Shown in pieces: positions 2,944 through 21,101 of a stretch of 24,359 nucleotides of DNA. How positions within the stretch are numbered: position 1 is the stretch's first letter; each line of letters starts with the position of its first letter. The stretch comes from a virus: positions 1 to 24,359 of IMG/VR virus record IMGVR_UViG_3300020469_000256. One strand, 5' to 3'. The notes under the pieces are model-generated. The model had not been told where the DNA came from. It did not search any database and saw only the letters and a program-made list of their open reading frames with translations. The translations under genes and the position numbers were made by a program.

Positions 2944-3152
2944 TGGAACAGATGTATCAAAATAGGGACTCTCTCCTTATTAAGAAACCAGCTGGTCCTG
3001 GTAAGAAGAAAAAGAAAAAAAAGAAGAACCCATTATTAGATGGAGCTAAACGTCTTTTACTTAATAAGAAAAATGTTGCACCAGCTGCAAAGGCTATGCA
3101 ATCAATAACTGACAGAAATAAAAGACTTCAAAAATTAATAGACGGTATGTAA
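2943..3152 (+). CDS. Small poly-lysine protein, unknown function
   Basis: 69 residues. Residues 15-30 are mostly Lys (GPGKKKKKKKKNP), encoded by an A-rich run near 3003-3028; the C-terminal half (AAKAMQSITDRNKRLQKLIDG) should form a helix. Start and stop each overlap the neighbours by a single base (TAATG), so it is part of the packaging operon, between the Lys-rich repeat protein and the large terminase. Its charge suggests nucleic acid binding. The A-rich coding run could cause polymerase or ribosome slippage. Confidence 0.65.
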   Translation: MEQMYQNRDSLLIKKPAGPGKKKKKKKKNPLLDGAKRLLLNKKNVAPAAKAMQSITDRNKRLQKLIDGM

Positions 3153-4882
3153 TGACAGATGTCATAGCAGAGTTGAAAGGCGATTTTAAGCTGTTCCTAC
3201 AGGCATTGTGGGATCAGCTTGATCTTCCCGAACCAACAAGAGCACAATATGCCATAGCAGATTATCTACAACACGGACCTAAACGATTACAGATCCAGGC
3301 GTTTCGTGGTGTTGGTAAATCCTGGATAACAGCCGGGTTTGTTTTATGGACATTATTTAAAAACAACGAAAAAAAGATAATGATTATTTCTGCATCTAAG
3401 GATAGAGCAGATAACATGTCGATTTTTTTACAGAAACTAATAGTAGAAACACCGTGGTTAAATCACCTACAACCAACAAACGAAGATGCAAGATGGTCCA
3501 GGATCAGCTTCGATGTAGCTTGTCCTCCGCACCAAGCACCTTCCGTCAAATCCCTTGGTATCACTTCGCAGTTGACCGGGTCCAGGGCCGATTTTATTTT
3601 ACTAGACGATGTAGAAGTTCCTGGAAACAGTATGACGGAGTTAATGCGTGAAAAACTTCTTCAACTTTGTACGGAGACCGAATCCATCCTCACACCATCG
3701 GATGATTCTCGTATTTGTTTCCTTGGGACTTATCAGAATAGCTTTAGTATTTATACTCGCCTTGCAGAGCGGAATTATAAACCGTTTGTTTGGCCAGCCC
3801 GATATCCAAGAAAAACAGAGTCTTATGGAGGACTCCTAGCACCACAACTCTATGAAGATATAGAAAGAGGTGTAGATCCAGGTGAATGTACTGACCCAGA
3901 TAGATTTGATGATGAAGACTTACTACAAAGAGAAGCTTCAATGGGTAAAAGCAACTTTATGCTTCAATTTATGCTCGATACAAGCTTATCCGATGCTTCG
4001 AAGTTTCCTCTTAAGTTTGCTGATCTTATTGTTACTTCTGTTAACCCAACTACCGCTCCAGAAGCAATTATATGGTGCTCCGATCCAAGTAATGTCATCA
4101 AGGATTTACCAACAGTTGGACTTCCTGGAGATTACTTCTACTCCCCTATGCAAACAAAAGGTGAGTGGTCAGAATATAACCAGACAATTGCCAGTCTTGA
4201 TCCATCAGGCCGTGGCTCCGATGAAACAGCAGTCTCGTACCTTTCAGAAAAAAACGGTATCATCTACCTGCATGAAATTCGAGCCTACAGAGATGGTTAT
4301 TCAGACAATACCTTGCTTGATATCCTTAAAGGATGCAAAAAATATGGAGTTACAAAGATGGTTATTGAGACAAACTTCGGAGATGGTATAGTCTCTGAAC
4401 TTGTCAAAAAACATTGTATACAAACTAAAAACTATATAGATATAGAAGAGGTTAGAGCTAACGTCCGTAAAGAAGACAGGATAATAGATGCCTTAGAACC
4501 TGTCATGAACCAACATAGATTAGTTGTTGATCGTAAGGTTATCGAATGGGACTTCGCTAGTAATCCTAAGTTACCTCCAGAAGAACGTATCGGTTATATG
4601 TTGTTCGGACAAATGTCTAAAATGACCAGGGCTAAGTTCGCAATAAGACATGATGATAGGCTTGATTGCCTTGCCCAGGGTGTTAAATACTTTACAGAGT
4701 GTCTAGCAGTTTCAGCATTAGAACAGATTAAGTTAAGAAAACAACTTGAGTGGGATGACATGATTAAAGGATTTCTAGATGATCCTCAATCATCTGCTAA
4801 TCACCTAGTTATGGGAATGAATTATAAGCAAAGACAAGAAGCTAGAGGACAAGAAATAGATAACGATAATACTTGGGCTTGA
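3152..4882 (+). CDS. Terminase large subunit (T7 gp19-type packaging ATPase and nuclease)
   Basis: 576 residues, close to T7 gp19. The N-terminal ATPase has a Walker A motif AFRGVGKSW at about 50-58, the coupling region IMIISASKDRAD at 76-87 and a Walker B FILLDDVE at 148-155. The C-terminal RNase H-like nuclease carries ASLDPSGRGSDETA near 347 (first acidic residue), a middle segment EDRIIDALEPVMNQHR and the final acidic cluster HDDRLDCLAQGV near 500. It pumps concatemeric DNA into the prohead through the portal and cuts it to unit length. It starts on the stop of the preceding gene (TAATG). It ends the rightward packaging operon: a terminator-like hairpin follows within 50 bases. Confidence 0.96.
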   Translation: MTDVIAELKGDFKLFLQALWDQLDLPEPTRAQYAIADYLQHGPKRLQIQAFRGVGKSWITAGFVLWTLFKNNEKKIMIISASKDRADNMSIFLQKLIVETPWLNHLQPTNEDARWSRISFDVACPPHQAPSVKSLGITSQLTGSRADFILLDDVEVPGNSMTELMREKLLQLCTETESILTPSDDSRICFLGTYQNSFSIYTRLAERNYKPFVWPARYPRKTESYGGLLAPQLYEDIERGVDPGECTDPDRFDDEDLLQREASMGKSNFMLQFMLDTSLSDASKFPLKFADLIVTSVNPTTAPEAIIWCSDPSNVIKDLPTVGLPGDYFYSPMQTKGEWSEYNQTIASLDPSGRGSDETAVSYLSEKNGIIYLHEIRAYRDGYSDNTLLDILKGCKKYGVTKMVIETNFGDGIVSELVKKHCIQTKNYIDIEEVRANVRKEDRIIDALEPVMNQHRLVVDRKVIEWDFASNPKLPPEERIGYMLFGQMSKMTRAKFAIRHDDRLDCLAQGVKYFTECLAVSALEQIKLRKQLEWDDMIKGFLDDPQSSANHLVMGMNYKQRQEARGQEIDNDNTWA

Positions 4883-5920: not shown

Positions 5921-5948
5921 ACTTTAATCAATCCGATTAAGTAACTAA

Positions 5949-5991
5949 TGCGGTAATGGCATTCTTTAGGGTTCGATTCCTTAAACCGCAA
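5949..5991 (+). ncRNA. Mini tRNA-like RNA 1 (acceptor stem plus T arm only)
   Basis: TGCGGTA (5949-5955) pairs with AACCGCA (5984-5990) at six of seven positions as an acceptor stem. TAGGG (5967-5971) and CCTTA (5979-5983) form a 5-pair T stem (one G-U) around the canonical T loop TTCGATT (5972-5978). An A at 5991 sits in the discriminator position; CCA is not encoded. Between the acceptor strand and T stem, where a tRNA has D, anticodon and variable parts (about 41 bases), there are only 11 bases (ATGGCATTCTT). A terminator hairpin begins two bases later. A second element of the same plan is at 7337-7381. The topology equals the minimal substrate recognised by RNase P and CCA-adding enzyme. 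Function unknown; it cannot decode. Confidence 0.6.
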
Positions 5992-5992
5992 T

Positions 5993-6017
5993 AACCATAT
6001 TTTTTATGGTTTTTATT
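5993..6017 (+). terminator. Terminator directly after mini tRNA-like RNA 1
   Basis: AACCATA (5993-5999) pairs with TATGGTT (6005-6011) around a TTTTT loop, followed by TTTATT. A 7-pair stem with a short U-rich tail is consistent with an intrinsic terminator, though AT-rich. It contains the in-frame ATG at 6006, which argues against that codon as the start of the next gene. Confidence 0.55.
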
Positions 6018-6031
6018 CACAATCACAATCA
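6014..6031 (+). repeat. Early-region repeat TATTCACAATCACAATCA, copy 1
   Basis: 18 bases identical to 6617-6634; the last 16 are also at 7165-7180. The core is two tandem CACAAT units between TT and CA. This copy follows the terminator at 5993-6017 and ends 10 bases before the ATG at 6042. No recognisable Shine-Dalgarno sequence separates it from the start. Confidence 0.75.
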
Positions 6032-6041
6032 GTTATTACTT

Positions 6042-6368
6042 ATGACTAGCTCACTAACAGCTTTTCAACTTGAAAACTTTTCAGAATTACAAGCTTATTG
6101 CTTCACACATTTAGAGGCAATGCATGCAATTAAAACACTGAAAAAAACCCGCGGCAATGCATACAAAATAATCAACATGCACAGGATGGCCGAAGAACCA
6201 GCAGAACCAAAGGAAAAAAAGGATTTTATTACATGGTTTATAAACCTTGATAACGACCCAAAAAACGAAGAAAGAATTATAAACCTTTTATATAAAAAGG
6301 GATATTCTGCACGACTAGCAGAGAGAAGATACAGGGAAGCAGTAAACGCATTAAAAGAAGGTTGGTAA
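6042..6368 (+). CDS. Early protein, unknown function
   Basis: 108 residues from ATG 6042 (MTSSLTAFQLENFSEL). The frame extends to ATG 6006, but that codon lies in a terminator hairpin and its extra residues would only translate the early-region repeat, so 6042 is preferred. The protein is charged and mostly helical by composition; the C-terminal third (NEERIINLLYKKGYSARLAERRYREAV) has an HTH-like pattern, which might bind nucleic acid. First gene of a five-gene early set that ends at 7331, followed without a gap by the next gene. No homologous family recognised. Confidence 0.65.
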   Translation: MTSSLTAFQLENFSELQAYCFTHLEAMHAIKTLKKTRGNAYKIINMHRMAEEPAEPKEKKDFITWFINLDNDPKNEERIINLLYKKGYSARLAERRYREAVNALKEGW

Positions 6369-6587
6369 ATGATAACAGTAAATTATGTTTCGGATTTACA
6401 AAAAGCAAAGACCAACAGTGAACTGGCAATTCAAATTCTTGCTAACAATCCAACCAAAGAAAATGCAGATTTTTCCAGACTTCAAAAAAGGATTTATGAC
6501 CATGTTAATTATGGAAAAATGACTTTATTTGAAGCAAACAAAAAAGAAAAATTGAATTTTTTTGATTCAGATTTCGTACTCGTTTAA
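6369..6587 (+). CDS. Small early protein, unknown function
   Basis: 72 residues, starting right after the TAA of the previous gene. The protein is Asn- and Lys-rich with a helical middle (SDLQKAKTNSELAIQILANN) and an aromatic, acidic end (LNFFDSDFVLV). No motif or signal is recognised. The tight junction indicates co-transcription and probably coupled translation. Small left-end proteins of T7-like phages often redirect host functions, but nothing here shows a specific target. Confidence 0.6.
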   Translation: MITVNYVSDLQKAKTNSELAIQILANNPTKENADFSRLQKRIYDHVNYGKMTLFEANKKEKLNFFDSDFVLV

Positions 6588-6616
6588 AAAACTGCACCTG
6601 ATCAAAATTTATTTAC

Positions 6617-6634
6617 TATTCACAATCACAATCA
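6617..6634 (+). repeat. Early-region repeat, copy 2, abutting a start codon
   Basis: Same 18 bases as 6014-6031, here with the last A directly before the ATG at 6635. It fills the space where a Shine-Dalgarno sequence would be expected, so the repeat may be a translation-start or operator element. Confidence 0.75.
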
Positions 6635-6910
6635 ATGGCAAAAACTAGACAAATTATTGTAACTTTCCCTGATCACACACAGGCAACAAGGCAAACCGAC
6701 CGCATATACACACACGCGGTTAAGTCTAAAGATGACCACAACAACGGAACAATCCGCTGGTGCGGTAGACCCGATTTAATGATTAAAACTAAGAGGAAAT
6801 ATAAAGATCCTCTAGTAGGTGTTATTACTTGGGATCCTTGGATAGCTCATCCAATTGAAGCACCCAAGAATTTCAAACCTTACGACCTCAAAACCGGGCA
6901 AATATTATGA
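6635..6910 (+). CDS. Early protein, unknown function
   Basis: 91 residues beginning MAKTRQIIVTFPDHTQ. Beta-rich and basic in the first half (RQTDRIYTHAVKSK), then GTIRWCGRPDLMIKT and a Trp-containing segment VGVITWDPWIAHP. No known domain is recognised. The start directly abuts repeat copy 2, and the stop overlaps the next start by ATGA. The gene is separated from the previous one by 47 bases that hold only the repeat and an AT-rich stretch. Confidence 0.6.
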   Translation: MAKTRQIIVTFPDHTQATRQTDRIYTHAVKSKDDHNNGTIRWCGRPDLMIKTKRKYKDPLVGVITWDPWIAHPIEAPKNFKPYDLKTGQIL

Positions 6911-7092
6911 ATAAATTTTTAAATAATTCATACGCAATAACCGCGGCCCGCTGGAGTTTATGGGAATGTCAAAAAAAGAGACTTAATTTATTAAGTACTC
7001 CTAATTATGACGAAACCGAACTAACAAACATTAACGCAACTATTCGGGACCTTGAAAAGCACATTGATTGGGCCGAAGGTTTAAAACAATGA
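6907..7092 (+). CDS. Small early protein, unknown function
   Basis: 61 residues; ATGA overlaps at both ends show tight coupling with its neighbours. The N-terminus (NNSYAITAARWSLWECQKKRL) and the C-terminal IRDLEKHIDWAEGL look like two amphipathic helices joined by a short loop (STPNYDETELT), a helical hairpin layout. No family recognised. Confidence 0.6.
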   Translation: MNKFLNNSYAITAARWSLWECQKKRLNLLSTPNYDETELTNINATIRDLEKHIDWAEGLKQ

Positions 7093-7331
7093 GCGAGTTT
7101 TTATACAGGATCCCCAATAAAAAACTAGCTTGGAAGTTTTTAGCCTATTTAGACCGGGCAGCCGTTCACAATCACAATCAATTTAATTTTAAGGATTGTT
7201 CGGCCCGGGATAGCTTATACAAACAACTGTGTACAGCTGAACAAAAAGACCTAGGTTGGCCATCGGAAAAAGTCGCGGAGACTTTCCCAAAAAGAAAACT
7301 AAAGAAAAAACATATAAAAAAAATTTATTAA
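7089..7331 (+). CDS. Small basic early protein, unknown function
   Basis: 80 residues from ATG 7089 (MSEFLYRIPNKKLAWKF), chosen because it overlaps the previous TGA as ATGA; ATG 7068 in the same frame would overlap further. The C-terminus is strongly basic (PKRKLKKKHIKKI). Repeat copy 3 (7165-7180) lies inside the reading frame and encodes VHNHNQ. The gene ends 5 bases before the second mini tRNA-like RNA, so the RNA may be processed from this gene's transcript. Function unknown. Confidence 0.6.
   Translation: MSEFLYRIPNKKLAWKFLAYLDRAAVHNHNQFNFKDCSARDSLYKQLCTAEQKDLGWPSEKVAETFPKRKLKKKHIKKIY
7165..7180 (+). repeat. Early-region repeat, copy 3, inside a gene
   Basis: TTCACAATCACAATCA, identical to 16 bases of copies 1 and 2, inside the gene 7089-7331. 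The 10-base core TTCACAATCA occurs again at 7864-7873, and shorter matches (TTCACAATC, AATCACAATC) occur near 8983 and 10962. Confidence 0.7.
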
Positions 7332-7336
7332 ATAAC

Positions 7337-7381
7337 TGAAAAGTTGGCACATTATGGCGGGTTCGATTCCCGCCTTTTCTA
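7337..7381 (+). ncRNA. Mini tRNA-like RNA 2 (acceptor stem plus T arm only)
   Basis: TGAAAAG (7337-7343) pairs with CTTTTCT (7374-7380) at six of seven positions. GCGGG (7357-7361) and CCCGC (7369-7373) form a perfect T stem around TTCGATT (7362-7368). A at 7381 is the discriminator position; CCA is not encoded. The linker between acceptor and T stem is 13 bases (TTGGCACATTATG) and shares TGGCA and a following TT with element 1, although both stems differ in sequence. A strong terminator starts four bases later. With no upstream room for D and anticodon arms this is not a normal tRNA. Candidate roles: tRNA decoy, substrate for tRNA-processing or EF-Tu, or a tRNA-derived attachment remnant. 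Confidence 0.65.
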
Positions 7382-7384
7382 TTG

Positions 7385-7408
7385 CCGCTCAATGAGAGCG
7401 GTTTTTTT
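7385..7408 (+). terminator. Intrinsic terminator after mini tRNA-like RNA 2
   Basis: CCGCTC (7385-7390) and GAGCGG (7396-7401) form a perfect GC-rich stem with an AATGA loop, followed by seven T bases (7402-7408). This is the clearest intrinsic terminator in the window. It ends the early five-gene module and the small RNA. Confidence 0.9.
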
Positions 7409-7415
7409 GTATCTA

Positions 7416-8132
7416 ATGTCTATCAACATTCATTTGAAGAATGATAGTAAAAACTCCAAAATTGGAAAGTTAGCACTATCAACAACAACGGGGGCCGAAT
7501 CGTGCCCTAATACTTGCATACATAAGAAAGCGGGAACGTGTTATGCAATGACTGGCCCGCAATCTTGGCATTGGGCAAAAACGACCAAAGGAACATATAA
7601 AAAGAATGTTTCTTCTAATTGGTCGGACCTTTTCGAAGCTATAGAAAAGTTACACCAGGGCGATAAATGGCGGTTGAATATATCCGGGGATTTGATGCCC
7701 GGGGGATTTGATGAAAACGGCCTAGACATTGCGGATCCAAACTATATAGCCGGACTAGTTAAAGCTAATAACAAGTCAAAGGCTAACGGCTACACTTATA
7801 GTCATTATTCAATTAAGAATAAAAGCAATTTGAAATCTTTTAAATTTGCAAATAAAAACGGATTCACAATCAACACCAGCAACGAAACATACGAAGACGC
7901 AGACGATAGTTTTAAAAAGGGATTACCAACAACACTAACTAGACCCAGTACGGAAAAAATTCCGGCTTACTCACCAGCTGGTAATAAATTGGTTATATGC
8001 CCTCAACAAACAAGCAACGGTAAAATTACCTGTGAAAGTTGCAAATTATGCGAGATTGGAAACCGCGAGGAAATAGTAATTTTCTTAGCCCATTCAGCAA
8101 GAAAAAACAAATTAAACGAATTAATAAAATAA
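7416..8132 (+). CDS. Cysteine-rich phage protein with two Cys clusters, unknown function
   Basis: 238 residues from ATG 7416. The frame runs further upstream through the terminator and tRNA-like RNA, which only non-ATG codons could open, so 7416 is preferred; it is 7 bases past the terminator T tract and has no clear ribosome site. An N-terminal cluster (CPNTCIHKKAGTCYA, about 31-45) and a C-terminal cluster (CPQQTSNGKITCESCKLC) could bind zinc or an iron-sulfur centre. Between them are WRLNISGDLMPG, YTYSHYS and a GFTINTSNE segment. This pattern is familiar from an uncharacterised phage family (I believe labelled DUF7227); I do not know a proven function. Enzymatic redox or radical chemistry is only a guess. 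Confidence 0.75.
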   Translation: MSINIHLKNDSKNSKIGKLALSTTTGAESCPNTCIHKKAGTCYAMTGPQSWHWAKTTKGTYKKNVSSNWSDLFEAIEKLHQGDKWRLNISGDLMPGGFDENGLDIADPNYIAGLVKANNKSKANGYTYSHYSIKNKSNLKSFKFANKNGFTINTSNETYEDADDSFKKGLPTTLTRPSTEKIPAYSPAGNKLVICPQQTSNGKITCESCKLCEIGNREEIVIFLAHSARKNKLNELIK

Positions 8133-8323
8133 ACTTGTATTACTAGTTTTATAGATTAATAGAATTTATATCAGTATTAGTTTTTGTAACAATTTATACA
8201 TGATGATTTTAAGTTTTGTTTAAGGACGTATCCGCTTATGAGTAGAGACCATAAGGACGCAAGGACGCAAGGACACACATAAATTTTGCAAGGACGCAAG
8301 GACGCAAGGACACAAGAACGAAT
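8133..8323 (+). other. AT-rich intergenic tract leading into a tandem repeat array
   Basis: 8133-8220 is almost pure A and T with scattered TTTTATAG, TTTATATC and TTTATACAT words, any of which could serve as -10 boxes, but no convincing -35 partner is seen. The AAGGACGC repeats follow. No gene is supported before 8324. AT-rich tract plus iterated short repeats is a layout seen at replication origins, but also in ordinary leader regions. Confidence 0.5.
8253..8321 (+). repeat. Tandem 8-base repeat array (AAGGACGC)
   Basis: Two blocks: three units at 8253-8276 (two AAGGACGC, one AAGGACAC) and four units at 8290-8321 (two AAGGACGC, AAGGACAC, AAGAACGA). The first three units of both blocks form the same 24 bases. 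The blocks are 13 bases apart. Isolated AAGGACG copies occur at 8222, 8344, 8469 and 8617. Unit length has no multiple of three, so it is not a coding repeat. Confidence 0.85.
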
Positions 8324-8506
8324 ATGCATTTATCCAACAACACAAGGACGTTGCTGCTCAAGCAACTTAGCACCACTCCATACCTATCCGAGACATGGTA
8401 TCGGCTCGTACACATTCTGGAATTTGACACCCATGAACAAAGCAAAGTGCTATCAGGCAACGTACCACAAGGACGGAATCAACATAGCAATTATCATCCA
8501 TGCTGA
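8324..8506 (+). CDS. Possible small protein overlapping the next gene
   Basis: 60 residues starting MHLSNNTRTLLLKQLS, with a credible helical first half (ETWYRLVHILEFDTHEQSKVL) and a less protein-like end where it overlaps the better supported gene at 8433. A GTTGCT/AGCAAC hairpin (8350-8366) lies inside. No ribosome site is apparent. It may be a real gene that ends in overlap, or a chance frame. Confidence 0.3.
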   Translation: MHLSNNTRTLLLKQLSTTPYLSETWYRLVHILEFDTHEQSKVLSGNVPQGRNQHSNYHPC

Positions 8507-9290: not shown

Positions 9291-9573
9291 ATCTAAAAGT
9301 CAAGAGCTACCTATACAGGTTGTTTCTTTGTTCTTATATATAGCGTCTAGAAATAATTGCAATAAGCAAAGTGCTGAAGATCATTTAACAATGTCTAAAG
9401 CCAGTGCATCTCGTAATACTGATTGGTTATCCAGGACCCACTACAACGGCAGACCAGGTTTAAACCTGATACGCAAAGAAGTAGATCCAGAAGATAGAAG
9501 GAAATCAACTCTTCGCCTGACCCGCAAAGGAAGAGATTTAGTAGAAAAATTAACCTCCATCCTTTATGACTAG
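9169..9573 (+). CDS. MarR-like winged-helix transcriptional regulator
   Basis: 134 residues. After an N-terminal dimerisation-like helix (MDKILKAIEIIRDLDRES), the order VSLFLYIASRNNCNKQSAEDHL, SKASASRNTDWLS and GLNLIRKEVDPEDRRKSTLRLTRKGRDLVEKL matches helices 2-4, the beta wing (D-P-x-D-R-R-K) and the C-terminal helix of MarR-family regulators. MarR proteins bind palindromic operators and often repress. P-SSP7-like phages have such a gene just before integrase and RNA polymerase. Starts at 9184 or 9211 are alternatives. It overlaps the integrase gene by 8 bases, so both are probably made together. Confidence 0.8.
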   Translation: MKSIMIPTVQKLLEMDQIRPSDPQMDKILKAIEIIRDLDRESKSQELPIQVVSLFLYIASRNNCNKQSAEDHLTMSKASASRNTDWLSRTHYNGRPGLNLIRKEVDPEDRRKSTLRLTRKGRDLVEKLTSILYD

Positions 9574-10498
9574 TTCTACGGCAACGAACTTCCGTAACAT
9601 CGAACAAGTATTTAAATTTAGTTTCAGCAACAAACATACATGGAAAACCAATTACAATACTCGGAAGAGTATGGAAAATTGCAGTAGACATGTATTACAA
9701 CATCTTGGACCTAAATTTGAAATAAGAAAAACCGACCAGAGTGCAATGGATTATCTCTATGACACTATGGTTGAGCATGATGCAAGTAACTCATTATTTA
9801 ATAGAGCAAAAACATCATTGCAAACTGCTCTTAATTTTGGTGTATCTAGAAAAAAGATATTCACTGACCTAAGAGAGCCACATATAAATGCCCAGGGTAT
9901 GTTTCATTTCGAATCAAAACCTGAGAATCGCGTACCGCAGCCTGTAATTAAAAAGCATGAGGCTGATCAAATGGTTAAAGTTGCACGAGAACATTTCGGT
10001 GGCAACTTAGCTGATTCAATAGCAATTAGTGTTTATAGCGGTATGGGCTACGATGAATGGACGCAGCTTCAAGCTTGCGACATACATTGGGAAGATGTCC
10101 CATTTATATGGATTGGTAACAGGCCAGACTTTAGGCTTAAAAGAAACTCCAGAAAAAGAAAGATACCTCTTGTTGGTAATTTAACAGGTGGTAATCTTAT
10201 ACCTATTCTCAAAAAAAGATATGAAGATGCTCAGGGAACTGACATCCCATTATTTGGTGATGATTGGAACAATGCTGATCAACATCGCAGAGAGTTTAAC
10301 AAGGTAAAAACCTGGTGCAGAATTAATCCAAAAGTTACACCATATTGTTTACGTCATAGTTTTTGTACTTGGTTAATCCAGGCTGACGTTGCATTACCAA
10401 AAGTAAAAGAGCTTATGGGGCATGCACAGATAACTACGACAATGAACTACATACATGTAGCTGATAATGATTTAGCTAATGCAATTGGGAGGCTCTGA
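9566..10498 (+). CDS. int: Tyrosine recombinase (phage integrase) with altered active site
   Basis: 310 residues with a helical N-terminal core-binding domain (about 10-110) and a C-terminal catalytic domain. Recognisable are the basic K in RKRKIPL (about 199), CLRHSFCTWL with Arg II at 263, LMGHAQITTTMNYIHV with His/Trp-position His 286 and nucleophile Tyr 295. The Arg I box, normally TG-x-R-x-x-E-L, reads SGMGYDEWTQL, with Gly 161 (GGC) in place of the invariant Arg, and the HxxR His is Tyr 260. Loss of Arg I usually abolishes strand cleavage, so this protein may be inactive or reused. Family role: site-specific integration at host tRNA genes. It lies between MarR and RNA polymerase as in P-SSP7-type phages. 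Confidence 0.88.
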   Translation: MTSSTATNFRNIEQVFKFSFSNKHTWKTNYNTRKSMENCSRHVLQHLGPKFEIRKTDQSAMDYLYDTMVEHDASNSLFNRAKTSLQTALNFGVSRKKIFTDLREPHINAQGMFHFESKPENRVPQPVIKKHEADQMVKVAREHFGGNLADSIAISVYSGMGYDEWTQLQACDIHWEDVPFIWIGNRPDFRLKRNSRKRKIPLVGNLTGGNLIPILKKRYEDAQGTDIPLFGDDWNNADQHRREFNKVKTWCRINPKVTPYCLRHSFCTWLIQADVALPKVKELMGHAQITTTMNYIHVADNDLANAIGRL

Positions 10499-11063: not shown

Positions 11064-13403
11064 ATGCCAACTCCCTCACAAATTGATGAGGAGTTTTTGT
11101 TTGAGCGGAAATTAATAGACGGTGGTTTAGAAAAATTTAGAAAAGATACTCTTAAATTAGAGAAGGCTTCATATGCCTCAGCTACCGTATATGGTTCTAG
11201 TTCAATCGAGAACTTACTACCTATATTTATAAAATATATAAAGGAAAAAACTGCAAAAAGATTAAAAAATGCAAGTGGTCATAGATTGCATTTATTACAC
11301 AATTTCATACTACAAATAGACCCGGAGAGTGCAGCTGCAATTGCAAGCAAGATTGTATTCGATAAGGTCTTTTCTTATAGAAAGGAAGAGAGTGCAGTTT
11401 GCAAAATTACAGAATCATGTGGTCGAGCTATAGAAGCAGAACTACAGATGAGATATTACGAACAAATTAAGCCTGGACTATTCAATGCTTTAAAGAAAAA
11501 CTATTGGCATATGTCTAAAGGTACGGAATCCAAAAGAAAAAGCATGCAAGTGCTTATGCAAAAACAGGATATTGATCCTTGGGTTGCATGGACTCCAGCT
11601 ACCAGAGTAAAAGTTGGTGGTTGGTATGTTGATGCATTATGCGAATCTTCTGGATGGTTTGAGGTTTTACCTTTTTATACAAGGAATAGAACAGAGAACA
11701 GATTAGTACCAACTGAACAGTTCATCAAACATAAAGATGAGATCGTAAAAATAGCTGAATTATTTAGTCCATTCAGCTGGCCAATGTTGATAGAACCTAA
11801 TGATTGGAGTCAAACAAACGAGGGAGGTTATTTACTTAATCAACTTACAAGATGTCACGATTTTGTACGCAAAGGACAACCCCTCCCTGTACAGGGAAAA
11901 TTAATTTACGAATTTATCAATGGGATACAAAAAGTAAAGTATACATTGAACCCCTGGATTGTTGAGGTAGCTGAAACTCTGGAACAGCTGCAACGTGGTG
12001 TTGGCAAATTTCGCCCCATCATGTACACAGAGATACCACCAAAACCAGCTGACATTGATACCAATGCTGAAAGTAAGAAGCGTTGGAAGCGGGATGCTAC
12101 TAAAATCAACAATGCTAATGCACAGGAATTTCGAAAGTCTTGTCGAACAAGAATGACAATGAATTTTGTCAAAGAATTCAAAAATAAACCTTATTATTAT
12201 TTGTGTTTTTCATGTGACTACAGAGGAAGGATTTATCCTATACCTACTGTTGGATCAACTCAAGACACTGACTTTGGAAAGGCATTAGTTAGAGCGGGAG
12301 ATGAATCTCCTGTAACTCCTGACGCTATAACTTGGATAAAATTTGAGGTAGCCACATGCTACGGCCTTGATAAAAGTCCAATGCAAGAAAGATTAGATTG
12401 GACAACAAATAATCACAATCTAATAGAACAGGTAGCTACAGATCCTATAGGTTGTTTACCAGCCTGGGAAATTGCAGAAGAACCTTTCAGATTTCTTGCA
12501 GCTGCTAGAGAATACTACGAAATAGTAATAGCGAAAACTAGAACAACTACAGGACTATGGATCAGTATTGATGCCACCAGTTCTGGATTACAACTACTTG
12601 CAGGGATGAGTTCTGACTTATCAACTGCCAAACTTACAAATTGCGTACCAAGCGATAGGCCACAAGATGCCTACAAAGTAGTAGCTGAAGCTGCTAAACC
12701 ACACATACCGCAACGATTTTGGAAAGTATGGGATAGGAAAAATGTTAAAAGAATAGTTATGACATTACCCTACTCAGCTAAGTTCCAAAGCAATTTGACT
12801 TACATAAGAGAAGGCTTAGTTGAAAAAGGAATAGAACCTACAACTGATGAAGTTACACAAACTGTAAGAGCAGTAAGAAAAGCTATGTCTGATATCTTTC
12901 CCGGACCCATGAAAACAATGTCCTGGATAGAAAAAGAGGTAGGAAAAGCAATTAAACGTGGAATGACAGAGATCTCTTGGGTAACACCGTCAGGTTTCAG
13001 AGTTGTTCAACGACTGATGAAGAAGGATACAGAAACAGTAGAACTAAAACTACTAGGTAGATGCCGAGTCAAGGTAGGGACTGGAGAGTTAGGGGTTGAT
13101 CTTAACCACCATAAGAATGCAACAAGTCCTAATTTAATTCATTCGATTGACTCATCAATGCTCGCCCTGGCTTGCACAAAAGCAAAGGGAGTAGACGTAA
13201 GCCTAATACATGACTGTATTCTTGCCAAAGCAACTGACATGACATTGATGTCAAAGCTCATCAGAGAAGCATATAAAGAAATCTTTACTAACCACAATGT
13301 CTTAAAAGATTTTGCAAAAGCAATTAATGCCGAAGAAGAACCTCCATATGTAGGAGATTTAGACCCTTCTTTGGTCACAGAGTCAACTTATTTTTTTTGT
13401 TAA
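11064..13403 (+). CDS. Single-subunit T7-type DNA-directed RNA polymerase
   Basis: 779 residues, shorter than T7 gp1 (883). Palm and finger motifs are present: CDYRGRIYPIPT (T7 DWRGRVY region), ISIDATSSGLQLLAG with the first catalytic Asp, RKNVKRIVMTLPYSAKF with the O-helix Lys, a TPSGFRVVQ segment leading into the promoter-specificity region, SPNLIHSIDSSML, and SLIHDCIL with the second catalytic Asp. It transcribes middle and late phage genes. It follows the integrase block and leads into SSB with a TAATG overlap. A copy of the 20-base palindromic repeat lies within the frame at 11877-11896 and encodes GQPLPVQG, which may be an insertion in the N-terminal half. Confidence 0.97.
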   Translation: MPTPSQIDEEFLFERKLIDGGLEKFRKDTLKLEKASYASATVYGSSSIENLLPIFIKYIKEKTAKRLKNASGHRLHLLHNFILQIDPESAAAIASKIVFDKVFSYRKEESAVCKITESCGRAIEAELQMRYYEQIKPGLFNALKKNYWHMSKGTESKRKSMQVLMQKQDIDPWVAWTPATRVKVGGWYVDALCESSGWFEVLPFYTRNRTENRLVPTEQFIKHKDEIVKIAELFSPFSWPMLIEPNDWSQTNEGGYLLNQLTRCHDFVRKGQPLPVQGKLIYEFINGIQKVKYTLNPWIVEVAETLEQLQRGVGKFRPIMYTEIPPKPADIDTNAESKKRWKRDATKINNANAQEFRKSCRTRMTMNFVKEFKNKPYYYLCFSCDYRGRIYPIPTVGSTQDTDFGKALVRAGDESPVTPDAITWIKFEVATCYGLDKSPMQERLDWTTNNHNLIEQVATDPIGCLPAWEIAEEPFRFLAAAREYYEIVIAKTRTTTGLWISIDATSSGLQLLAGMSSDLSTAKLTNCVPSDRPQDAYKVVAEAAKPHIPQRFWKVWDRKNVKRIVMTLPYSAKFQSNLTYIREGLVEKGIEPTTDEVTQTVRAVRKAMSDIFPGPMKTMSWIEKEVGKAIKRGMTEISWVTPSGFRVVQRLMKKDTETVELKLLGRCRVKVGTGELGVDLNHHKNATSPNLIHSIDSSMLALACTKAKGVDVSLIHDCILAKATDMTLMSKLIREAYKEIFTNHNVLKDFAKAINAEEEPPYVGDLDPSLVTESTYFFC
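11877..11896 (+). repeat. 20-base repeat with 12-base palindrome, copy 2 (inside RNA polymerase)
   Basis: Identical over 20 bases to 4884-4903, and read here as part of QPLPVQG. Chance recurrence of 20 bases in 24 kb is very unlikely. The palindrome CCCTGTACAGGG is complete in both copies. Confidence 0.75.
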
Positions 13404-18998: not shown

Positions 18999-20391
18999 AG
19001 TGGGTCGTATTCAGGATTGGCTAGATAATCCTGTCGGAAAATTACCGGTCAGCTGTACAACTTTTAAAGTTGGGGACAGTATGACAGAAGGAAGAGATTC
19101 TATTGAAGCATCATGGAAATTTACCTCATGGGGTTTACGAAATGGAGCGGGAGTAGGAATTACCCTGGACGATATAAGAGCAGAAGGGGAAGTAAACGAT
19201 AAGGGGTTGTATGCAAGCGGTCCTGTGTCATTCGCAAAAATATATTCAGCATTAAATGAAACACTTAGACGCGGTGGTGTTCAGAAAATTGGAGCGGTTA
19301 CGCTTCATCTTTCCATTGATCACCCTGACATTGTTACCTTCGTGCGGGCGACCAGAAGTAGTCTCCCCTGGGTTAAACGATGTGTTGACCTCACCCCAGA
19401 ACTCTGGGCTAATACAGAAACTTCAACAAAGACGGAAATACTTGGAGCAATTGCAAAAGGAGATGTCTGGTTAAACAAAATCAAGCATAACAAACATGGA
19501 GAAAGGCTTTTAAGTAATGTTTGCTTAGAGGTTTACACCCTATCCAGGGGCACATGTTTGCTTTCTCATTGCAACTTAGGTGCATGTCATGTTGGCATGT
19601 TAAAAACTGTCTTTGTAGATGCCATGACAGAGTTATGTCAGATGCATAGTAAGACAGGAGTTGGAGGTGAATATCTTACTCCTCAAGAAGATAAGCAAGT
19701 TGGTTTGGGTATTCTTGGACTAGCTAATTTCTTAGCTTATAGTCAAGTTACATACAAGGAATTTGGTGATGCTTTAGAACAAGTCAACCAGGGTAACTAC
19801 GCAGTAGGTCCAGCTGGAGTTTTAGCTCAGGAATTTCAAGAAGCAATAGATGCTGCTACAGATGTTGCATGTTCATATGGAATGGAAAGAGCATTCTGTA
19901 TAGCTCCAACTGCATCATGTAGTTATAGATCAAATGATCTTCTTGGTTACACAGCTACACCTGAGATAGCTCCACCTATAGATAGAGTTGTCTCCAGGGA
20001 TAGTGGAGAACTAGGAGTTATAGATGTTAACTATGGTCCTGATGTAGAGATAGCAAGAGAAGTTGGATGGGAAGTTTATAAGAAAGTTGCTGATCAATTA
20101 ATGACTATGTATGAGAGAACTGGATTGCTTCATGGCTATTCATTTAACTCTTGGTCGGACATGGTTACTTACGATGAAGCGTTTATAGAAGATTGGCTGA
20201 AATCGCCACAAACAAGTTTGTACTACAGTTTGCAAGTTCGTGGTGATACCCAGGATAAAACCTCAGCCTACGCAGCCCTTGATGAAGAGGAAGTAGAAGA
20301 GTACTTAGCAGATTTGTTTACAAAAGAACCCGACCCAAACGCAACACCCGATCCTAATTACAAGATTGAATGCTACGGCTGTGAACAATGA
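18958..20391 (+). CDS. nrdA: Class I ribonucleotide reductase, large (alpha) subunit, compact
   Basis: 477 residues, much shorter than E. coli NrdA (761), with no N-terminal ATP cone. LPVSCTTF holds the first active-site Cys (33), NVCLEV is the N-x-C-x-E motif with the thiyl radical Cys 189, LSHCNLGAC gives the partner Cys, and APTASCSYRSNDLLG matches the PTA-x-x-S motif. The end (CYGC, 472-475) is the redox-shuttle Cys pair. It reduces ribonucleotides for phage DNA synthesis. Homologues in P-SSP7 were long annotated as B12-dependent class II and later reassigned to class I because the next gene is the beta subunit; the same pair occurs here. A 4-base ATGA overlap joins it to nrdB. Confidence 0.93.
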   Translation: MKLKTEGKPNPIVKVGRIQDWLDNPVGKLPVSCTTFKVGDSMTEGRDSIEASWKFTSWGLRNGAGVGITLDDIRAEGEVNDKGLYASGPVSFAKIYSALNETLRRGGVQKIGAVTLHLSIDHPDIVTFVRATRSSLPWVKRCVDLTPELWANTETSTKTEILGAIAKGDVWLNKIKHNKHGERLLSNVCLEVYTLSRGTCLLSHCNLGACHVGMLKTVFVDAMTELCQMHSKTGVGGEYLTPQEDKQVGLGILGLANFLAYSQVTYKEFGDALEQVNQGNYAVGPAGVLAQEFQEAIDAATDVACSYGMERAFCIAPTASCSYRSNDLLGYTATPEIAPPIDRVVSRDSGELGVIDVNYGPDVEIAREVGWEVYKKVADQLMTMYERTGLLHGYSFNSWSDMVTYDEAFIEDWLKSPQTSLYYSLQVRGDTQDKTSAYAALDEEEVEEYLADLFTKEPDPNATPDPNYKIECYGCEQ

Positions 20392-21101
20392 ACCCATACG
20401 AAAAATTATTAAATAGAAAAAGAAAATGGACACCTGTCCAAGTCACAAAAGGAAAGGTAAAAGAAGGTGCTGAAGAAACCCTCAAGCGTGTACTCTCAAT
20501 ACGTCATATGGAGTTGCCAGTCGGAGCATTTGTTACTGAAGCTCTTGAGAAAGGTGTACCCGATAAAGCTAGAGAAGTTCTCCTCTCGAATGTTAAAGAT
20601 GAAGAGAATCACGATAAAGCTTTAGATTATGTTGTCCAGGCACATGGCTTAGATGAAAAGTCAGAACGAGAAGCTTTGATATTAAGGGATGCCTGGATGA
20701 GTCATCCTGACCACACGTTACTAAAATCATTGACTGCTGAAAGAGCGATATTTTTCGTTCTTTTACCGTTTTTAAGATTTAATGGTGACGTTGGTATGAG
20801 AACTACATCAATGGATATCTCGCGTGATGAACAGATCCATGTGGCGGTCGGAAGTCTTGTTACAGCAGAGCTTCAGCTTACTGCTAGTCCTTCCCTGGAC
20901 AAACTAAGGAAGGCAACAATTAACTGGATTATGCAGCCACTAGGTAATCACGAAGATAAATATTTAAATAAAAAATTTTGGTTAGATGCTTCAGACAGAT
21001 TGATGTATGAAGGCAGAGCACCAGAACTAGCACAAACAAAGGCTGCTAGAGTTCCAGCTTTTTTTGAGACAAGTAATGAAAATCTCCCCCAATACGCTTA
21101 G
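20388..21101 (+). CDS. nrdB: Class I ribonucleotide reductase, small (beta) subunit, divergent
   Basis: 237 residues, short for NrdB (about 320-375). A ferritin-like four-helix metal site is visible: Glu 42 (MELPVG), the first E-x-x-H (Glu 72, His 75 in KDEENHDKAL), Glu 118 (TAERAIFFVLLPF) and the second E-x-x-H (Glu 148, His 151 in SRDEQIHVAV). Spacing follows E. coli NrdB (84, 115/118, 204, 238/241). The position four residues after the first His, Tyr 122 in E. coli, is Leu 79; Tyr 81 is two residues away. So radical storage is probably not the standard tyrosyl. Gene pair with nrdA (ATGA overlap). Harrison and colleagues described an overlooked beta subunit of this kind in P-SSP7. Confidence 0.85.
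   Translation: MNPYEKLLNRKRKWTPVQVTKGKVKEGAEETLKRVLSIRHMELPVGAFVTEALEKGVPDKAREVLLSNVKDEENHDKALDYVVQAHGLDEKSEREALILRDAWMSHPDHTLLKSLTAERAIFFVLLPFLRFNGDVGMRTTSMDISRDEQIHVAVGSLVTAELQLTASPSLDKLRKATINWIMQPLGNHEDKYLNKKFWLDASDRLMYEGRAPELAQTKAARVPAFFETSNENLPQYA

Follow-up and report, generated by a model that had tools for sequence, protein, structure and literature searches.

The stretch analysed here (the window) comprises 24,359 bases of an IMG/VR record (IMGVR_UViG_3300020469_000256) and is DNA of a T7-like cyanopodovirus whose kin include P-SSP2, P-SSP3 and P-SSP7. Between its terminase and T7-type RNA polymerase genes, an interval that constitutes the early-gene region in such phages, lie two short transfer RNA (tRNA)-like elements, which we call mini-tRNAs. 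The features are listed below:

3152-4882, terminase gene
5949-5991, plus strand, mini-tRNA element 1, TGCGGT-AATGGCATTCT-TTAGGG-TTCGATT-CCTTAA-ACCGCA, then A5991; acceptor 5949-5954/5985-5990, T stem 5966-5971/5979-5984, T loop 5972-5978 (TTCGATT), discriminator A5991, GG of the D-loop remnant 5958-5959
5993-6011, plus strand, 3' hairpin of element 1, AACCATA(TTTTT)TATGGTT, then a T run; 2 nt past the discriminator
6016-6031, plus strand, leader TTCACAATCACAATCA, repeated in the window, 5' of the next gene after element 1
6042-6368, plus strand, first gene 3' of element 1, no family match, start choice inferred
7068-7331, plus strand, small gene 5' of element 2, listed start codon TTG at 7068; its stop lies 6 nt before element 2
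7337-7381, plus strand, mini-tRNA element 2, TGAAAAG-TTGGCACATTATG-GCGGG-TTCGATT-CCCGC-CTTTTCT, then A7381 (the last T is 7380); acceptor 7338-7342/7375-7379, T stem 7356-7361/7369-7374, T loop 7362-7368 (TTCGATT), discriminator A7381, GG 7346-7347, U74-U75 at 7382-7383
7384-7402, plus strand, 3' hairpin of element 2, GCCGCTC(AATGA)GAGCGGT, from RNAfold and relatives; T run 7403-7408
7416-8132, plus strand, gene for a DUF7227 protein (PF23872, domain match), directly 3' of element 2
9566-10498, tyrosine integrase gene
11064-13403, T7-type RNA polymerase gene

Both elements were described in an original prediction made from the window's sequence, and their coordinates and shared plan were confirmed. 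Each has a 12-bp helix with a linker on its 5' side, 11 nt long in element 1 and 13 nt in element 2. The helix itself held, but the fixed division into acceptor and T stem originally proposed did not: it can be read as 6+6 or 7+5, the outer end of element 2 is an unpaired T-T (T7337 opposite T7380), and C7374 may pair with G7356 or alternatively with G7343. The sequence GGTTCGANNCC occurs twice in the window, where 0.02 occurrences are expected. RNAfold returned the complete 12-bp coaxial fold for element 1 (z -2.07). ARAGORN called no tRNA at either element, and the linker measures 8-22 nt in most members of the family described below, which agrees with the predicted lack of an anticodon arm in the typical member. 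Neither element matched Rfam at the gathering score, the sole sub-threshold match being that of element 2 to a fragment of the T arm of transfer-messenger RNA (tmRNA).

Loci of relatives were retrieved most productively with terminase and capsid queries; the RNA polymerase query gave 3 loci only, and the DUF7227 protein nothing usable. In 722 kb of terminase-linked contigs, a descriptor (T-loop GTTCRANNC, mismatch-free T stem, 12 bp in total, at most one acceptor mismatch) picked out 24 elements, 24/24 on the coding strand, versus 3 in 3.6 Mb of Markov controls. When selection was made blind to strand and on T arms alone, 47 TTCRANN and 26 TGCRANN arms were recovered, 73 sense and 0 antisense, and none with TACRA or TCCRA. 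An upstream acceptor strand with at least 5 contiguous Watson-Crick pairs accompanied 52 of these 73 T arms, against 10.9 expected from shuffled upstream sequence. The syntenic homologues with compensatory changes that the original prediction had proposed to look for were found:

Element 1 orthologues, about 1 kb after terminase: L003 10463-10504; L004 5090-5132; L168 about 5941-5990
Element 2 counterparts, with related 3' hairpins: L005 5531-5579; L027 6566-6614; L154/L170; L155/L172; L157; L158/L171

Among the orthologues of element 1, pairs have changed (for example, G-C to T-A in L004) and the T stem has been replaced. A separate 7-sequence alignment gave a covariation of 0.655 versus 0.242 after shuffling. 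A covariance model built from 7 short-linker members (R1) recovered a further copy in P-SSP2 and P-SSP3; it reached the window elements only locally, via their T arms (E 0.0025 for element 2 and 0.36 for element 1), and these matches were excluded as evidence of membership for the window acceptor stems. On the examined loci, Rfam 15 gave the mini-tRNAs no match above the gathering score, and elsewhere only Glutamine-II, group I intron and true tRNA matches. The descriptor found nothing in T7 or in pelagiphage HTVC304P, and its only matches in cyanomyovirus Syn9 (first 50 kb) were the five true tRNAs. Four descriptor matches inside virion or other genes (P-SSP7 41054, S-TIP37 32582, P60 6367 and P60 30850), together with the match L076 5591 and a second reading of element 2, were set aside as chance or redundant. 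Some longer members carry an extra arm (L049 5886-5962, L084 974-1045, L093 6020-6097 and L083 7254-7326) and are intermediate between a true tRNA and the minimal form; at P-SSP2 8566 and in relatives, a 5-bp anticodon-like stem carries an 8-nt loop and the D arm is missing. In P-SSP7, elements are located at 602-648, 974-1045 and 20631-20679, and in Syn5 at 2699-2746 and 19841-19883.

A pattern taken from one sub-family, ATCCGTNNAAGCGG N8 GTGCRA, which constrains neither helix beyond the last T-stem G, matched at least 120 viral contigs, and those checked were relatives of the 79-kb Synechococcus phage S-EIV1. The S-EIV1 isolate has two copies, and an 88-kb relative has four within 0.8 kb. 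Among the matches listed there were 116 distinct copies (S-EIV1-type), which are mutually related, so that counts over them are not counts of independent events. Pairing in the T stem was 0.99-1.00 at 7 positions (chance level at the variable positions 0.40-0.75) and in the acceptor 0.83-0.99 over 5 positions, and it ended after exactly 12 bp; when the partner was slid by one column, it fell to 0.60-0.63 and 0.30-0.38, respectively. Double changes filled 337/1392 cells. The comparison shows that the family shares a predicted 12-bp acceptor/T-stem helix closed by a tRNA-type T loop, and it strongly supports the proposal of a new phage RNA class having the acceptor/T half of tRNA.

The claim that the elements lack a D arm proved wrong in substance. 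Most linkers contain a small hairpin, a rudimentary D-like arm with a conserved GG or AG in its loop, and nearly all members with a TTC-type T loop have GG in the linker. For the TGC class, counting linker GG is weak, because GG also occurs in stem strands, and the test was confined to the loops of Watson-Crick D hairpins. Read from the listed hairpins, GG was present in 14/15 loops of the TTC class and 0/15 of the TGC class, and AG in 13/15 of the latter; a stricter scripted count of the last two bases gave GG:AG ratios of 6:1 (TTC) versus 0:10 (TGC; Fisher p 0.0006). One homologous pair differs by exactly this double change (L029 9329, TCGGTTTAA/TTCAACT, versus L035 5126, TCAGTTTAA/TGCAACT), and the four copies of one genome include both the GG/U55 and the AG/G55 states. 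These counts show covariation between the dinucleotide of the predicted D loop and T-loop base 55, U going with GG and G with AG, which implies a tRNA elbow; the mini-tRNA probably forms this tertiary contact. We read the switch as G18-U55 to A18-G55 with G19-C56 retained, a natural experiment on the elbow geometry of tRNA. The TGGCA that the original prediction had noted at the same place in both linkers is indeed shared, and it can now be identified as a D-loop remnant, since GG occurs in nearly all TTC-class linkers and covaries with the T loop.

In the S-EIV1-type set the stop codon of the upstream frame ends exactly 6 nt inside the acceptor in 88/116 copies, TGA or TAA occupies the embedded-stop position in 110/116, and the downstream start codon follows at a median distance of 45 nt. 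Many podovirus copies have a stop at +5/+6, and in others, including both window copies, the stop lies upstream of the element. Positions 73, 74 and 75 are A, U and U in 105, 115 and 112 of the 116 copies, respectively, and in the podovirus-type set U74 is found in 52/59 and U75 in 50/59. A hairpin starts at 74-77 in 67/116 copies (2.6 expected) and in 29/59 of the podovirus type (1.9 expected); in the window copies the gap between element and hairpin is 2-3 nt. The hairpin of element 1 is kept in the orthologues, with the stem altered in L004 (AACCGTTA/TAACGGTT), the ANYGA loop of the element 2 type recurs among relatives, and a true tRNA-Asp in L049 bears the same 3' hairpin. Copies sit between cistrons, and often the next ATG comes after the 3' hairpin; for the gene following element 1 the start at 6042 is more likely than that at 6006, since the latter falls within the hairpin. 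Predicted mini-tRNAs are thus shown to stand on the coding strand at cistron borders and to have a discriminator, in most cases A, ahead of UU and a hairpin. In L156/L165 and in about 20 of the 116 copies, a likely H-type pseudoknot, TGCCC-CCA-GCGG-AGA-TGGGCA-CCGC, whose stems covary, takes the place of the simple hairpin just 3' of the helix.

A mini-tRNA is also found 5' of the major capsid gene in P-SSP2, P-SSP7, P-SSP3, P-GSP1, Syn5, S-TIP37, S-CBP3, S-SBP1, S-RIP1 and S-TIP28, with roughly 118-184 nt from the end of the helix to the start codon, and many environmental relatives have one with different stems at this site. NATL1A-7 has a true tRNA-Gly there, P60 and S-CBP2 have T-arm variants (an 8-nt T-loop and a weak acceptor, respectively), and S-CBP4, 9515-10a, S-RIP2 and SS120-1 have an alternative hairpin with a conserved loop, CACCTCAGAGTCGGA. 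In this way all 17 of the 17 cyanopodovirus isolates examined carry a mini-tRNA, a T-arm variant, a real tRNA or the alternative hairpin before the capsid gene, and a true tRNA is shown to be able to take the place of the predicted mini-tRNA. The alternative hairpin, with a conserved 15-nt loop CACCTCAGWGTCGGA and variable stems (L090 19943; L093 34761, L094 20926 and L148 35285, these three on the minus strand; L114-L132), is apparently a second unrecognised element, and an Rfam search with it gave no match.

Mini-tRNAs are most likely cutting or end-forming signals that split long viral messages into separate messenger RNAs (mRNAs). Of the roles originally suggested, processing or 3'-end formation fits best, given the intercistronic placement and the A73-UU end, whereas the decoy and EF-Tu roles found no specific support. 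More specifically, we give about an even chance to the reading that they form a tRNA-like family at cistron borders where RNase Z-type 3' processing forms mRNA ends. Host RNase Z, the enzyme of CCA-less tRNA 3' processing, would recognise the mini-tRNA fold and cut after the discriminator. The upstream mRNA would be left with a stable tRNA-like 3' end, possibly CCA-tailed, and the downstream mRNA would begin with UU and the hairpin, which would shield its 5' end just before the leader and ATG. RNase P may also act where the upstream stop codon precedes the element. Cleavage after the discriminator is favoured because the family combines a CCA-less A-UU end with an intercistronic fold and because RNase Z of Bacillus subtilis and archaea behaves accordingly: in B. 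subtilis a uracil no more than 2 nt past the discriminator boosts the cleavage of CCA-less pre-tRNAs about 200-fold (PMC10100781), and the archaeal enzyme is able to process pre-tRNAs without D or anticodon arms (PMC7479834). The CCA-less 3' end and the U at 74 or 75 that mark an RNase Z substrate are found across the family. RNase Z is present in cyanobacteria, as reportedly described by Ceballos-Chavez and Vioque in 2005 (a reference of PMC7479834). In T7-type transcripts, structured intercistronic signals, the RNase III sites of T7, divide the message, and they are plain hairpins; the mini-tRNA would be a stop-process-start cassette that takes their role in dividing phage polycistrons. Both are intercistronic, but the tRNA-like element was not found in T7.

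A broader formulation we advance more tentatively, at somewhat less than an even chance: that these are a new class of viral RNA, a modular stop-process-start cassette made of an elbow without a decoding arm and often with a stop in the acceptor, which would recruit host tRNA 3' processing and so give tRNA-like 3' ends and hairpin-capped 5' ends in unrelated cyanophage lineages. Several observations speak against processing by RNase Z or against the fold itself. Element 1 has U74 but A75, the T runs after the window hairpins could make these plain terminators, and the conservation of UU and the hairpin could have another cause, such as the stability of a 5' hairpin or termination. The L168 orthologue of element 1 retains the acceptor, yet its T stem shows two U-U oppositions. 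In the minimum-energy fold of element 2 the T arm is kept and a competing small hairpin covers the 5' acceptor strand, so that the case for its acceptor is a comparative one.

Excision of the mini-tRNA by RNase P at the 5' side and RNase Z at the 3' side, the full tRNA punctuation known from animal mitochondria and plant t-elements, appears unlikely. The recognition unit of RNase P is the acceptor/T minihelix with an elbow, and in NATL1A-7 and L049 true tRNAs stand at equivalent sites; in plants, RNase P and RNase Z cleave the t-elements, which are CCA-tailed and uncharged (PMC11658184). However, the stop lies 5-6 nt inside the acceptor in 88/116 S-EIV1-type and many podovirus copies, and non-stop mRNAs would result; in addition, acceptor position 1 is not a conserved G. 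Since the 5' cut would strip the upstream stop codon in most S-EIV1-type copies (the same 88/116), though it would spare that of each window copy, RNase P probably does not act on the family generally, and the description of the elements as minimal RNase P substrates is weakened accordingly. The hairpins with T runs after both window elements, that of element 2 having a good intrinsic-terminator shape, and the position of elements before promoter-like blocks upstream of the capsid gene would suit a module at which the phage or host RNA polymerase terminates or pauses, in which the tRNA-like part is an accessory that protects the 3' end; but the hairpin lacks a T run in many family members, and termination has no need for a T loop, for elbow covariation or for UU at 74-75, which makes this reading quite improbable.

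We find it similarly hard to credit that the elements are translational devices, in which a tRNA-like fold at the stop codon governs termination, reinitiation or coupling without cleavage. The fixed place of the stop, the purine at acceptor position 5 (G in 97 and A in 17 of 116 copies), which preserves both the pair and the stop codon, and the usual proximity of the next ATG agree with such a role, but many podovirus copies, the two in the window among them, have no embedded stop, and the gene following the pre-capsid element lies 118-184 nt away, apparently behind a conserved promoter-like block. A decoy, a regulatory small RNA, a binder of EF-Tu or a synthetase, and attP remnants of host tRNA genes are together very improbable. 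The acceptor/T half is the part of tRNA bound by EF-Tu and the CCA enzyme, and the window has a tyrosine integrase gene. Against these readings, the stems vary freely with pairing kept, several copies occur per genome between small genes, and they are always on the coding strand. An origin of attP type, which an exact match to the 3' end of a host tRNA would have indicated, was rejected: no exact 24-mer or 22-mer match of the 3' halves of the window elements was found in 84,980 host genomes.

For cutting or end formation, the preferred role, the conceptually nearest known system is the plant mitochondrial t-element, which differs in size, structure and carrier. Like mini-tRNAs, t-elements are tRNA-like, stand at mRNA ends and are CCA-less, and they are cut by tRNA-processing enzymes and not charged (PMC11658184). 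They derive, however, from whole organellar tRNA genes, whereas mini-tRNAs have no tRNA match and those of the window no exact match in host genomes; moreover, the mini-tRNA is carried by phages, lacks the anticodon arm, has a D arm of few base pairs, often contains a stop codon and precedes a hairpin. The human mascRNA of MALAT1 is comparable as a tRNA-like processing signal: it recruits RNase P and RNase Z where a long transcript ends, and its D and anticodon regions are divergent (PMC11658184). It represents, however, one locus of a eukaryotic long non-coding RNA, whereas mini-tRNAs recur in many copies between the cistrons of viral operons. Canonical phage tRNA genes share the 12-bp acceptor/T helix, T loop and discriminator; unlike them, the mini-tRNA, without anticodon arm or anticodon, cannot decode, and its G55 T-loop variant goes with A18. 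The tRNA-like domain of tmRNA resembles it in having an acceptor/T arm without an anticodon, and provided the sub-threshold Rfam match of element 2, but the mini-tRNA is tiny, has no tag-coding mRNA part and gave no other tmRNA match.

No description of the element was found in the open-access literature searched. The mini-tRNA thus appears to be a new RNA family of a known type, that of tRNA-like processing or end-forming signals. The family is present in T7-like cyanopodoviruses throughout and in the unrelated S-EIV1-like cyanophages, the hosts being marine and freshwater picocyanobacteria. T7-like cyanophages are among the best-studied ocean viruses, and almost every isolate examined has the element; its size, below the reach of tRNA finders, seems to be why it was overlooked. 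Should it be a processing signal, it would account for the division of operons in these phages and would be a case of tRNA punctuation arising outside organelles, and the natural series from true tRNA through D-reduced tRNA to the minimal elbow would reveal which parts the processing machinery needs.

Other RNA features and repeats were observed near these elements. Glutamine-II riboswitch aptamers (RF01704) lie 5' of the mini-tRNA of the capsid gene in several cyanopodoviruses, about 55 nt away in P-SSP2 and P-SSP7:

L083 27034-27087, Glutamine-II aptamer
L084 20522-20575, Glutamine-II aptamer
L089 20335-20388, Glutamine-II aptamer
L116 2097-2148, Glutamine-II aptamer

The leader TTCACAATCACAATCA occurs in the window at 6016-6031, about 6619-6634 and about 7165-7180; two of these copies sit shortly upstream of start codons of early genes, and a Syn5 element is also followed by a leader of this type. 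At about 8250-8360 of the window, dense AAGGACGC/AAGGACACA repeats surround the start of a small gene.

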